In this document: positions 28,627 through 43,416 of the stretch, piece by piece
Layout of the letters: each line of letters starts with the position of its first letter
How positions within the stretch are numbered: position 1 is the first letter of the stretch
DNA from: Myxococcaceae bacterium
GTDB lineage: Bacteria > Myxococcota > Myxococcia > Myxococcales > Myxococcaceae
NCBI GenBank assembly: GCA_016926755.1
Contig: JAFGNZ010000375.1
Location: forward strand, 1 to 43,416
DNA: 43,416 nucleotides
Direction: 5' to 3'
Notes under the pieces: generated by a model
Databases searched by the model: none
What the model saw: the letters and a program-made list of their open reading frames with translations, nothing else
Told to the model about the DNA's origin: nothing
Position numbers and translations under genes: made by a program

Positions 28627-31323
28627 ATGGTCCCGAGCCCACCGCGCTCCGCGCCCGTCCTCACGCTGATTGACGCCTCCGGCTTCATCTTCCGCGCCTA
28701 CCACGCCATCCCCCCGCTCTCCACGAGCAAGGGGGTGCCCACCAACGCCGTCCTCGGCTTCACGCGGATGGTGCTCAAGGCGATCAAGGATCTGCAGCCC
28801 ACGCACCTGGCGCTCGCCTTCGACAAGGAGAGCCGCACCGAGCGCCAGAAGATCGATCCCAACTACAAGGCCCACCGCGAGGGCCCGCCCGAGGATCTGG
28901 TGCCCCAGTTCGAGCTCATCCGCCGGGTGGTGGACGTGCTCAACCTGCCCATCCTCGAGGTGGCCGGCTGGGAGGCGGATGACGTGATCGGCACGCTGGC
29001 CCGCCGCGCGAAGCAGGAGGGCTTCTGCGTCCAGGTGGTGACGGGGGACAAGGACTTCATCCAGATCGTCGACGAGGACGTGCGCCTCTTCGATCCGATG
29101 AAGGACGTGCACACCGGCCCGGCGGAGGTGAAGGAGCGGCTGGGCATCGAGCCCCGGCAGATGCGCGACTACCTGGCCCTCGTGGGCGACGCGGTGGACA
29201 ACATCCCCAAGGTGCCGGGGATCGGCCCGAAGACGGCCACGGAGCTGCTCCAGCAGTTCGGGGACGTGGACACGCTGCTCTCCCGCCTGGACGAGGTGAA
29301 GAAGCCGAAGATCCGCGAGGCGCTGGCCGCCCACCGCGAGGGGCTGCTGAAGGCCCGGAGGCTCGTGGAGTTCAAGACGGATCTCGATCTGAAGTTGTCC
29401 ACCGCGGAGCTCGCCCGCCGCCCGTTCGACACGGCGCGCGCCAAACAGCTCTTCACGGAGCTGGAGTTCTACCGGCTGGTGAACGAGCTGCCCGCGGACA
29501 CCGCCGCCTCCCAGCCCGCCACGCCCGCCACGCCCGCCGCGCCCGCCGCGCTCATCACCACCGAGGAGGAGCTGCGGGCGTTCGCGGAGGCGGCGCGCGC
29601 GGCCGGCTCCCTCTTCCTGGTGCCCGCCTACGAGGGGCCGCCCTTCACCGCGCCGCTGGTGGGCCTGGGGCTGGCGCTCCCGGAGGGGCGCACGGCCTAC
29701 GTGCCCCTGCGCCACCCGTTGATGCTCGGCGCCCGCCAGGTGTCGGAGGCGACCTTCACCGCCGTGATGCGCGAGCTGCTGGGGGACGCGGGGGTGAAGA
29801 AGGGCGGGCATGATCTCAAGGCGCTCACCCTGGTGCTCGCCGGCAGCGGGCTGCCGCTGTGGGGCGGCCACGACGACGTGGAGCTGCTCAGCTACCTGCT
29901 CAACCCCTCGCGCCGGGAGCACGCGCTGGAGGATCTGGCCCGGGAGCGGCTCAACACGGAGCTGCCCGCGCTGCCCGCCACCGGGAAGAAGGCCAAGGGG
30001 CTGGCGGAGCACACCCCGGAGGAGGTGGCCGCCGCCTATGTCTCCCGCGCGGACGCGGCGCGGCAGCTGGCCCCGGTGCTCTGGAAGGAGCTGGAGGAGG
30101 CCGGGCTGGCGAAGCTGGCGCGCGAGCTGGAGCTGCCGCTGCTCCCCGTGCTGGCGCAGATGGAGCGGCGGGGCGTGAAGGTGGACACCGCCGTGCTCCA
30201 GGCGATCTCCGCCAAGGTGGACGCCGAGTGCGTGGCCCAGGAGAAGAACATCCACCAGCTGGCCGGGCGCGAGTTCAACGTGGGCTCCAACCCGCAGCTG
30301 GCCCAGGTGCTCTACACGGATCTGAAGCTGCCCGTCCTCAAGAAGGGCAAGACGGGGCCCTCCACCGATCAGGAGGTGCTGGAGAAGCTGGCCGAGCAGC
30401 ACCCGCTGCCGGGCGCCATCCTCGAGTACCGATCGCTGTCCAAGCTCAAGAGCACCTACCTGGACACGCTGCCCACCCTGGTGGCCCGGGATGGACGCAT
30501 CCACACCACCTACCACCAGGCGGCCACCGCCACCGGGCGCCTGTCCTCCTCGGATCCCAACCTGCAGAACATCCCCGTCCGCACCGAGCTGGGCCGGGAG
30601 ATCCGCCGCGCCTTCATCGCCGAGCCCGGCCACCAGCTCGTCTCCGCGGACTATAGCCAGGTGGAGCTGCGGCTGCTGGCGCACATCGCCGAGGATCCCG
30701 TCCTCATTGACGCCTTCCAGCACGACGAGGACATCCACAGCCGCACCGCCGCGGAGATCTTCGGCGTCCCCCCGGACAAGGTGGATCGCGAGCAGCGCCG
30801 GGTGGCCAAGACGGTGAACTTCGGCATCGCCTACGGCCTGTCGCCGCACGGGCTGTCCACGCGCCTGAGCATCCCCGTGGAGGAGGCGCGCGACATCATC
30901 GAGCGCTACTTCACCCGCTACGCCGGCATCCGCACCTACCTGGAGGAGACCGTCGAGCGCGCCCGGAAGACGGGCTACGTGGAGACGATGTTCGGCCGGC
31001 GGCGGCTGATGGCGGATCTGCACTCACGCAACCGCCAGGTGGCCCAGGCCGCCGAGCGCGCCGCCATCAACATGCCCATCCAGGGCACGGCGGCCGATCT
31101 GATCAAGAAGGCCATGCTGGAGGTGGATCAGGCGCTCGCCAAGGAGCGCCTGCGCACCGTGATGCTCCTCCAGGTGCATGACGAGCTGCTCTTCGAGGCG
31201 CCGGACGCCGAGGTGGAGGCGGTGAAGGAGCTGGCGCGCCGGTGCATGTCGCAGGTGGCCAGCCTCAAGGTGCCCCTCAAGGTGGACGTGGGCGCCGGCA
31301 AGACGTGGGCGGACGCCCACTGA
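28627..31323 (+). CDS. polA: DNA polymerase I with degenerate 3'-5' exonuclease domain
   Basis: An 898-residue repair and primer-removal polymerase. Residues ~10-290 are the 5'-3' exonuclease (LTLIDASGFIFRAYHAI, LALAFDKESRTERQ, VTGDKDFIQIV, GDAVDNIPKVPGIGPKTA). The middle domain (~315-520) has the fold position of the 3'-5' exonuclease but lacks its carboxylates. By alignment to E. coli Pol I, Asp355/Glu357 become Pro/Tyr in FLVPAYEG, Asp424 becomes Leu in HDLKAL, and Asp501 becomes Ala in YVSRAD. The polymerase domain is intact: motif A DYSQVELRLLAHI, motif B RRVAKTVNFGIAYGLS, motif C QVHDELLFE. Proofreading is therefore probably absent, as in Taq-type enzymes. The substitutions are read by eye. 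Confidence 0.95.
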   Translation: MVPSPPRSAPVLTLIDASGFIFRAYHAIPPLSTSKGVPTNAVLGFTRMVLKAIKDLQPTHLALAFDKESRTERQKIDPNYKAHREGPPEDLVPQFELIRRVVDVLNLPILEVAGWEADDVIGTLARRAKQEGFCVQVVTGDKDFIQIVDEDVRLFDPMKDVHTGPAEVKERLGIEPRQMRDYLALVGDAVDNIPKVPGIGPKTATELLQQFGDVDTLLSRLDEVKKPKIREALAAHREGLLKARRLVEFKTDLDLKLSTAELARRPFDTARAKQLFTELEFYRLVNELPADTAASQPATPATPAAPAALITTEEELRAFAEAARAAGSLFLVPAYEGPPFTAPLVGLGLALPEGRTAYVPLRHPLMLGARQVSEATFTAVMRELLGDAGVKKGGHDLKALTLVLAGSGLPLWGGHDDVELLSYLLNPSRREHALEDLARERLNTELPALPATGKKAKGLAEHTPEEVAAAYVSRADAARQLAPVLWKELEEAGLAKLARELELPLLPVLAQMERRGVKVDTAVLQAISAKVDAECVAQEKNIHQLAGREFNVGSNPQLAQVLYTDLKLPVLKKGKTGPSTDQEVLEKLAEQHPLPGAILEYRSLSKLKSTYLDTLPTLVARDGRIHTTYHQAATATGRLSSSDPNLQNIPVRTELGREIRRAFIAEPGHQLVSADYSQVELRLLAHIAEDPVLIDAFQHDEDIHSRTAAEIFGVPPDKVDREQRRVAKTVNFGIAYGLSPHGLSTRLSIPVEEARDIIERYFTRYAGIRTYLEETVERARKTGYVETMFGRRRLMADLHSRNRQVAQAAERAAINMPIQGTAADLIKKAMLEVDQALAKERLRTVMLLQVHDELLFEAPDAEVEAVKELARRCMSQVASLKVPLKVDVGAGKTWADAH

Positions 31324-31338
31324 CGCACCAGAAAAGTC

Positions 31339-31382
31339 CGCGGGAGGGAGCGCCCAACCCCTGAAAGGCACTCCCCCCCGCG
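31339..31382. terminator. Bidirectional terminator between polA and the 31610 gene
   Basis: A 12-bp stem, CGCGGGAGGGAG (31339-31350) with CTCCCCCCCGCG (31371-31382), has one mismatch on the plus strand (A-C) that is a G-U pair on the minus strand. T residues follow on both sides (TTT after it; GACUUUU on the minus strand). It can end polA and, more stably, the minus-strand transcript containing the structured RNA. Confidence 0.7.
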
Positions 31383-31405
31383 TTTCCCCTCCCGCCAAGA
31401 ACAAG

Positions 31406-31603
31406 GCCGACCCGTCCGACCGACGAGGCGCGTGGACCCCCATCCACGCGTCCCATGCGGCCCTCAGCGAGCTCACCTGCCCCCATGCAGGGAACTCGCC
31501 CCCCGTTTCGCGTCACGAAGACCCCCATGCCCCGCGACGCGCCCCCATCCTCCGCCGGCCCTCGGACACTCCCTTGCGGGAGCATCAAGCCGGACGGGTC
31601 GGC
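31406..31603 (-). ncRNA. Candidate structured RNA with AUGGGGG hairpin loops
   Basis: A 198-base element read on the minus strand, beginning six bases after the stop of the 31610 gene. A perfect 13-bp closing helix (31591-31603 with 31406-31418) encloses four hairpins. H1: CUCCC-GCAA-GGGAG (31582-31569). H2: a 12-bp stem (31541-31530 with 31520-31509), loop CAUGGGGGU. H3: CCUGC/GCAGG (31491-31476), loop AUGGGG, extended by GCGAG/CUCGC. H4: CGCGUGGA/UCCACGCG (31450-31429), loop UGGGGG. Three G-U pairs in H2 and others in H3 and H4 become A-C or C-A mismatches on the plus strand, and the GNRA tetraloop exists only on the minus strand, so the minus strand is the RNA strand. It may be a 3' UTR-derived sRNA. 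I know no Rfam family with this form. Confidence 0.55.
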
Positions 31604-31609
31604 ACGCCT

Positions 31610-32131
31610 TTAATGAACCGAGAGCGGCACGCGCTCCGACCCGGAGCCCGGCTGGAGCCCAGCCTCGGAGGGCCGATCGAACCACTCCACCACCAGGCCA
31701 CCGAAGGGCACGCGAGGCCCCTCGGCGGACGCATCCTTGAGGCGCTGCAGCAGCGCCACCGCGGAGTCCACCGCCTCATCCACGCAGCGGTTCACCACCG
31801 CGCGCTCGGCATCCCCGCCGCCCAGCACCTCCACCGCATCCACCATGCAGCGCCGCAGCAACGCGAACTCTTCGTAGAGGGCCCGCGCGCCGCGCTCCGG
31901 CGACAGGCGCAGCACGGCCCGCGTGCGGCTCCAGGGGCTCGTCTCGTTCCCCGCCAGGCTCGCACCCACTTCGCGGATGAACGACTCCACCAGCCCATCC
32001 AGGAGGCTCTGGGGGGGATGCACCTGCGAGCCGCCCATGCACCGCACTCGCCTCCAAGCAGCGGCGAGCCGATCCGGCTGATGGGTGAAGACCCGCGCCA
32101 CCCCCACTGCTCGCCTTCCTCGCTCCGTCAT
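31610..32131 (-). CDS. Helical protein resembling RsbRD N-terminal sensor domain
   Basis: A 173-residue, mostly helical soluble protein. I start it at ATG 32131 because GGAGG lies nine bases upstream. The core (SLLDGLVESFIREVGASLAG, then ALYEEFALLRRCMVDAVEVL and CVDEAVDSAVALLQRL) has the spacing of the RsbRD_N domain that precedes kinase or STAS modules in stress sensors, but here it stands alone. The last ~25 residues (PSEAGLQPGSGSERVPLSVH) look disordered. The structured RNA begins six bases beyond its TAA, so the two are likely on one transcript. Function is unknown; a free-standing ligand- or partner-binding domain is the best guess. Confidence 0.65.
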   Translation of the reverse strand: MTERGRRAVGVARVFTHQPDRLAAAWRRVRCMGGSQVHPPQSLLDGLVESFIREVGASLAGNETSPWSRTRAVLRLSPERGARALYEEFALLRRCMVDAVEVLGGGDAERAVVNRCVDEAVDSAVALLQRLKDASAEGPRVPFGGLVVEWFDRPSEAGLQPGSGSERVPLSVH

Positions 32132-32405
32132 CTCTGGTGTCCTCCGCGTCACGCCCCCAGCCAAAGCAAGTCGCCGGCCAGCGCTCCGGGAGTCACGGTG
32201 CTCAAGAAAATCAGGATGTTGGAGGATCCCCTAGCCCCAGGGTGGGCGTGGGGCCGTAATTTCTTCGGGTGTGGCGCAGTAAGGATCTTCTGGGAATGCC
32301 CGTTCCTACTGCCTGCCTCATGTGATCCGAAGTGGGGCGGATGGTGATGGAGGGAGGGCTTCAAGCCGACCTTGTCGCGGAGGTGGAAGGGGACTGGAGG
32401 CGTCC
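32132..32405. other. Divergent intergenic region, 274 bases
   Basis: This lies between the start of the minus-strand RsbRD-like gene and the small plus-strand gene. It is less GC-rich than its neighbours. I see no clear -35/-10 pair in either direction and no tRNA or CRISPR. Short pairs such as GGGAA/TTCC near 32293 are the only symmetry noted. Confidence 0.3.
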
Positions 32406-43336: not shown

Positions 43337-43416
43337 GTCGGGTAGACCGGGGCAGTTGCCCACCCCGGCCCCCCACAGATCCGGACGTGCGGAATTGCCG
43401 CATCCGGCTCCTCGGC
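43337..43416 (-). mobile_element. Group II intron, 3' end (domains V and VI), partial
   Basis: Read on the minus strand, 43410-43378 is domain V: a GAGCCGGA/UCCGGAUC lower helix (with the AGC catalytic triad at positions 2-4), a CG bulge, and a UGCGG/CCGCA upper helix with a CAAUU loop. Domain VI follows (CCGGGG ... CCCCGG around UGGGCAACUG with the branch-point A region), then the 3' end CUACCCGAC, typical of bacterial group II introns. The intron ends at 43337. Its reverse-transcriptase ORF would be outside the window. One lower-helix position is G-A rather than G-U. Confidence 0.75.

Follow-up and report, generated by a model that had tools for sequence, protein, structure and literature searches.

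An apparently new family of structured RNA with repeated GGGG-capped hairpins behind a myxobacterial gene with a sigma-54-type promoter

The window under study is the whole stretch of 43,416 nucleotides of contig JAFGNZ010000375.1 (assembly GCA_016926755.1, a member of the Myxococcaceae). Within it, the polA gene (28627–31323, plus strand, assigned by Pfam DNA_pol_A and synteny) converges on a minus-strand gene (31610–32131, with the start at 32131) that encodes a 173-aa protein of unknown family and is called the host gene below. Directly downstream of the host gene lies an element at 31406–31603 on the minus strand, of which the convergent polA gene is a neighbour and not a part. The element begins six bases past the TAA of the minus-strand reading frame and a T-rich tract comes after its closing helix; the original prediction, which was made from the sequence alone, had placed it six bases after a stop codon and before a terminator. 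That prediction took it for an undescribed structured RNA. Based on its fold, on 55 homologues aligned to a covariance model and on covariation, the element is a real structured RNA with three GGGG-capped hairpins, which is conserved in fruiting myxobacteria.

Read along the minus strand, the element opens and ends with the closing helix P1, whose 5' arm (31589–31603) is paired with its 3' arm (31406–31420) in 99.9% of the cells among 52 distinct sequences, and the 3' arm is likewise supported by pairing and covariation in these sequences. A helix of 13 bp had been proposed here; the helix is present, but its length is 15 bp, with a G-U and a C-G pair added. The next hairpin, H1 (31565–31586, both-side changes in 5 of 9 pairs), does carry the predicted GCAA tetraloop in this genome, but the loop is not conserved in the relatives. 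The covariation alignment then defines an inner helix P2, with a 5' arm at 31560–31564 and a 3' arm at 31424–31428. Between these arms are located an unpaired AUGGGGG tract 5' of H2 (31542–31548, from motif positions and the accessibility prediction) and three hairpins with apical GGGG, namely H2 (31509–31541, predicted loop 31523–31528, both-side changes in 10 of 10 pairs), H3 (31467–31499, predicted loop 31481–31486, 7 of 12 pairs) and H4 (31429–31450, GGGG tetraloop 31438–31441 with a U-G closing pair, 4 of 9 pairs). The unpaired tract is also G-rich in the relatives, where its most frequent forms are GGAGGGAGC/T, TGAAGGGGGC and TGATGGGGGC.

All four AUGGGGG copies reported for the minus strand were found in place (31542–31548, 31522–31528, 31480–31486 and 31437–31443), and three of them are indeed hairpin apices in this genome. 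The relatives, by contrast, keep only the GGGG, and the closing pair covaries; that of H4 is U-G in 41, C-G in 8 and U-A in 3 sequences. GGGG itself occurs in the H2 region of 51 of the 52 distinct sequences and in the H3 and H4 regions of all 52. Over the whole window and both strands, AUGGGGG has 5 copies, compared with 8.1 expected by shuffling, and 4 of the 5 fall within 112 nt.

The closing helix is GC-rich, and the T-rich tract directly past it (31397–31404, minus strand), picked up by a sequence scan, is terminator-like; TTT is found inside the last 11 alignment columns of 45/52 distinct sequences. Further along the same strand, just before the polA stop codon, the interval 31332–31397 holds another inverted repeat, GCGGGAGGG / CCCTCCCGC, and after it TTTT; this could be a back-up terminator.

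The minus-strand fold has a free energy of –124 kcal/mol and a z-score of –5.57, and is equalled by 0 of 200 shuffled sequences. However, fold energy cannot assign the strand, because the plus-strand fold has the identical z-score and also beats all 200 shuffles. Instead, the strand follows from the homologue alignment, in which the minus strand read as RNA has 316 G-U cells against 24 A-C cells; the minus-strand sense, originally argued from the G-U pairs of the single sequence, is thus borne out across the homologues.

A DNA search of 59 relatives recovered the whole or most of the element in 13 other genomes at 70–90% identity, and part of it in a fourteenth, all of the same family (loci L009–L022). 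A first covariance model, built from 15 sequences, matched 58 of the 96 genomes of the family at one place each, so that the covariance search proposed earlier as a check has found its homologues; three of these matches are fragments at contig ends. With a second model, the same 58 were found among 145 genomes of the order, and under Infernal's stricter filters no match outside the family was seen among these 145. The alignment was made from 55 of the 58 matched genomes, with the three contig-end fragments left out, and contains 52 distinct rows. The carriers belong to eight genera (handles g1, g4, g8, g12, g15, g17, g23 and g43). Those with names, taken from 15 records with an exact match to a 39-base pattern from the 3' part of the element, include Myxococcus xanthus AM003, other Myxococcus, Corallococcus and Pyxidicoccus species, and Citreicoccus inhibens.

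Among the 38 genomes of the family with no covariance match, six belong to carrier genera and 32 to genera without any match. In three of the six (G076, G080 and G084) the contig ends inside the RNA, in two (G072 and G090) it continues for 34 and 82 bp beyond polA and stops there, and in the last (G075) neither the RNA nor polA was matched. The only closely inspected genome among the 32, G014, has an empty site. In G018 and G029 the host gene is present and the stretches examined gave no model match. Since contigs break inside or near the RNA, it is easily missed in drafts. Assemblies broken inside it are those of G009, G074, G076, G077, G079, G080 and G084 (L020, L037, L103–L105, L181–L184), and breaks within about 50 nt of it were noted in others (G070, G098, G107 and G111). 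The contig end in G076 carries letters that we take to resemble a sequencing adapter.

The covariation alignment was fitted to the covariance model. Among its 52 distinct sequences, 95.6% of the pair cells are standard pairs, and 30 of the 60 base pairs show changes on both sides, compared with a mean of 14.7 in shuffles and 4–11 for slid structures; for covariation the alignment scores 0.257 and the shuffles 0.161. Counts of pair changes are inflated by relatedness, and events were therefore also counted by simple parsimony on an independent tree made from the host gene DNA, which covers 51 of the 52 sequences (one locus lacks the gene). This gave 55 double changes, distributed over 27 pairs, compared with 3–8 when the partners are shifted by 1–3 columns. 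It should be noted that 43 changes turned a pair into a non-pair. The claim of a structured RNA is upheld by these compensatory changes, and a chance fold is ruled out by the covariation.

Several other identities were considered. A protein-coding element was rejected, as no reading frame is open in all 52 sequences and the lengths of the element fall in all three classes modulo 3; a conserved protein frame, which had been named as an observation that would speak against the RNA, is therefore not found. The sense frames are open in 0–26 sequences and the antisense frames in 36–42, the latter being as expected of GC-rich DNA. A repeat or mobile element was rejected too, since the genome itself has one full copy, the other hits of the own-genome search being short (17–52 nt), and each matched genome has one match. 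At gathering scores, the Rfam search of the whole window left the element without a match, as did the search of the loci of five relatives, and the element alone gave no match at E ≤ 5, in agreement with its description as undescribed. The same window scan returned a group II intron (RF00029, 42.6 bits) at the window end, at 43337–43412 on the minus strand. A retron msr-msd RNA was set aside in view of the absence of an Rfam match and of a reverse transcriptase among the four neighbouring proteins scanned. In addition, the element is not a homologue of the small RNA Pxr (RF01812), as it is unmatched in Rfam and the Pxr of this genome (122.5 bits) lies on another contig; Pxr has a different locus, a 109-nt model, a different fold and a loop of seven C, and is treated below as a candidate partner.

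The host gene has an orthologue at 54 of the 55 RNA loci, where the gap from its stop codon to the RNA is 6–64 nt; at the 55th locus (L020), the contig ends at the RNA. The longer gaps, up to 64 nt, are those of the Corallococcus group (L181–L183, L070, L084), and in L181–L183 the gap contains a small hairpin-like sequence and then a T-run, possibly an attenuator. The host protein had no Pfam or NCBIfam match above cut-off and, with a PDB profile, only hits with E > 0.05; a scan of genome contigs confirmed no relatives of it. Although the C-terminal tail is variable, the last residue is a histidine in 54 of 54 homologues. Orthologues of the host gene are also present in genomes without the RNA, and in G014 the stop codons of the host gene and polA are only 19 bp apart with no RNA between them. 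It follows that either the gene is older and the RNA joined it later, or G014 has lost the RNA. In some genomes polA is displaced, and the RNA stays with the host gene.

Upstream of the host gene, a sigma-54-type promoter, CTGGCCGGCGACTTGCT, is located at 32165–32181 on the minus strand, with –24/–12 elements of the form GG-N10-GC. The pattern TGGC-N7-TTGC, which we take to be the –24/–12 consensus of the sigma-54 type, was found in 59 of 59 located homologues of the host gene, mostly 49–51 nt before the start codon, and has two occurrences on both strands of the whole 43-kb window. The count started from 62 sources, in three of which the gene was not located (L020, as well as L177 and L178, whose genomes lack the RNA). 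This conserved pattern suggests that the host gene is under sigma-54 control. Two further conserved blocks, around GAAGAAATTAC and GCTGATTTTCTTGA, lie upstream of the promoter at about 32190–32290 (minus strand), and are possible sites of enhancer-binding proteins. Near the start of the RNA, no conserved promoter was seen. Because of this, and because the C-terminal tail of the host protein is variable across homologues, the simplest reading is that the RNA is transcribed as the 3'UTR of the host gene. The position is of the 3'UTR type, with a conserved gene directly in front and the terminator-like tract behind, as had been suggested earlier together with the G-rich loops, whose GGGG is kept. 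The likeness drawn at that time to the cuckoo RNAs of Rhodobacter, which have C-rich loops, holds for the genomic position and is limited to it.

What could such an RNA do? A stem needs no conserved loop, and the GGGG loops are therefore probably binding sites. In 51 of the 52 sequences, at least three GGGG tracts have a predicted opening cost below 1 kcal/mol; the element of the window has five such accessible tracts, and 35 of the 52 sequences are predicted to have only three. When 578 stretches of 200 nt were sampled from both strands, only one had more than two accessible GGGG tracts (it has six), and this one overlaps the element. In the window element, the fifth G of a hairpin loop is predicted to cost 2.1–3.8 kcal/mol. 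True GGGG tetraloops are sterically poor kissing loops.

The explanation that we favour, to which we give a probability of roughly 35%, is a 3'UTR-derived regulatory RNA that acts as a multivalent GGGG trap for C-rich RNA loops, with Pxr as the likeliest partner. The sigma-54-type promoter would drive the 173-aa gene and the transcript would end in the RNA, with the closing helix and the T-rich tract serving as terminator; the RNA may then be retained as the tail of the mRNA or be released from it as a stable species of about 200 nt. With GGGG in the free loops of three hairpins, and a further G-rich single strand, it could pair with C-rich RNA loops as a multivalent trap. Activation of the gene through sigma-54 would then let the RNA sequester Pxr, or destabilise it, and so help to lift the block that this sRNA places on fruiting-body development. 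The analysis shows the structure, its strand, the conserved GGGG loops, the place behind the gene, the promoter sequence and the presence of Pxr in the genomes concerned; that gene and RNA are transcribed together, that the RNA is released and pairs, which partner it has and how it affects development are points that we infer. The stricter form of this proposal, in which the RNA is a built-in Pxr antagonist, that is, the tail of a sigma-54-controlled mRNA that usually has three to five free GGGG sites, each able to catch the C7 loop of a Pxr molecule, is tentative, with the odds against it.

Known systems offer partial parallels, and by analogy with RosA and SroC the myxobacterial RNA could work like them. 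According to the accessible part of its description, RosA of Bacillus subtilis has a length of about 225 nt and three G-rich regions, pairs with the C-rich RNAs RoxS and FsrA, and sponges RoxS (PMC8216469). The similar length and the three G-rich regions, which in RosA face C-rich sRNA seeds, are shared features (PMC8216469). However, RosA is stand-alone, has a sigma-A promoter and has two of its G-rich regions single-stranded, whereas the myxobacterial RNA follows a gene and carries its GGGG in hairpin loops. SroC, a sponge of GcvB, originates in the 3'UTR of an mRNA whose promoters are of the sigma-70 and sigma-54 types, as summarized in the available text of PMC9731577; it differs in having a described release by RNase E, and Hfq was not found in the myxobacterial hosts tested. 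GlnZ, from the 3'UTR of glnA, is also similar, being described there as a 3'UTR of about 185 nt with its own terminator that is released from the mRNA, but it acts on mRNAs through a seed region, and its processing needs Hfq and RNase E (PMC9731577).

Pxr is the candidate partner in this hypothesis for reasons that lie in its first loop, UCCCCCCC, which has seven C, is unpaired in the prediction and has an opening cost of 0. The core GGTTCCCCCCCACC was found in 49 of 50 Pxr loci, in 80 copies including tandem ones, and the 50th locus has C6. Deletion of the loop of SL1, or the change of its fifth base from C to A, removes the Pxr block, as far as the accessible text reports (PMC5684412), and the sources, seen in part, describe the loop as essential and M. 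xanthus as being without hfq (PMC5684412, PMC5568312, PMC11928866). In the same sources, the direct targets of Pxr are given as unconfirmed, and pxrA is proposed, with a predicted pairing mainly via the third stem-loop (PMC5684412, PMC5568312, PMC11928866). In the accessible part of another report, starvation for as little as 0.5 h leaves no detectable active form of Pxr; the route is described as hypothetical, and the authors postulate either an additional ribonuclease or a partner that stabilises Pxr (PMC10217877). We calculated a predicted pairing energy of –11.0 kcal/mol for UGGGGG with the Pxr loop; if the loop is the predicted one of 8 nt, the published C-to-A change at the fifth base leaves no run of four C and the predicted energy falls to –7.2 kcal/mol. 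The change costs some G-tracts little, for example from –9.3 to –8.7 kcal/mol (predicted) for GGAGGGAGC. For each of the four G-tracts tried, the predicted pairing with the anti-Shine-Dalgarno sequence is weaker than that with Pxr (for UGGGGG, –7.8 versus –11.0 kcal/mol), which makes the anti-Shine-Dalgarno sequence the less likely target.

The distribution is less telling. Based on the Rfam model search only, Pxr was found in 93 of the 145 genomes of the order at E ≤ 0.001, of which 61 are above Rfam's own cut-off and the rest weaker; it is present in all 58 RNA carriers and also in 35 genomes without detected RNA, and is thus found almost throughout the family. Since Pxr and its intact C7 core also occur in genomes without the RNA, the co-occurrence is no sign of co-evolution. 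Besides, a match as short as GGGG:CCCC must arise often where the GC content is high, and the sequence therefore does not single out Pxr. Pxr is published as a myxobacterial sRNA with a sigma-54-type promoter, and we found such a promoter in 12 of 12 aligned Pxr loci. Upstream elements common to pxr and the host gene were sought and rejected, as the conserved blocks look different; a shared timing of the two promoters is therefore conjectural.

The same structure and accessibility would also suit a trans-acting sRNA whose GGGG loops pair with C-rich stretches of several mRNAs or other sRNAs, Pxr not being the main partner. GGGG is generic and any exposed C4 can pair with it, and Pxr and its C7 occur without the RNA; however, three copies of one seed fit the titration of a single partner better than ordinary target choice, and Hfq was found in 0 of 6 genomes tested. 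Such an sRNA is possible, if on the whole not likely. A trap of another kind, in which the GGGG-capped hairpins serve as an array of sites for an RNA-binding protein, would have just this architecture of repeated hairpins, conserved apical sequence and covarying stems. CsrB and RsmZ, for example, have repeated hairpins with one apical motif, the GGA loops of which bind CsrA. The likeness ends at the motif, as the conserved myxobacterial loops are GGGG and not GGA, and CsrA was found in 0 of 6 genomes tested; a CsrA-binding sponge was rejected on these grounds, and we regard protein titration in general as unlikely.

It is harder still to see the RNA as a cis element only, whether it were to terminate or stabilise the host mRNA in an elaborate way or to separate the convergent genes as a barrier in both directions. 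Its place directly behind the gene, with the T-rich tract after the closing helix, would suit this role, but a terminator needs neither three conserved GGGG loops nor several internal helices, in G014 the convergent genes have stop codons 19 bp apart and no RNA, and where polA is displaced the RNA has kept its place behind the host gene. We consider this quite unlikely. An intra- or intermolecular G-quadruplex as the functional fold, which the five accessible GGGG tracts of the window and the G-rich single-stranded tract of the relatives might bring to mind, appears very improbable, for each GGGG of H2–H4 sits in a hairpin with covarying pairs and most sequences (35/52) have only three accessible GGGG tracts.

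If the trap for Pxr is real, one signal of the state of the cell would lead to a new protein and at the same time disarm the checkpoint of fruiting-body formation, and a sponge RNA would exist in myxobacteria, in hosts where Hfq was not found. To our knowledge, few regulatory RNAs are known in myxobacteria, and no other myxobacterial sponge RNA was met in the literature searched. Neither is the present RNA described there, the search having covered titles and abstracts, with most subscription papers and all supplements outside reach. The sigma-54-type promoter and the Pxr idea are additions beyond the original prediction. Even if Pxr is not the partner, there remains an RNA family with strong support, in which GGGG-capped hairpins recur and which is absent from Rfam and linked to a sigma-54-type promoter; it is apparently new, of the 3'UTR type and unusual in these hairpins. 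The Pxr idea lends itself to a direct test in the model species M. xanthus, which also has this RNA with its several complements of the Pxr loop. Pxr itself occurs in tandem arrays of about 2–5 copies per genome (L213–L221; genera g8, g12 and g4), and the copies examined from these genera retain the C7 core.
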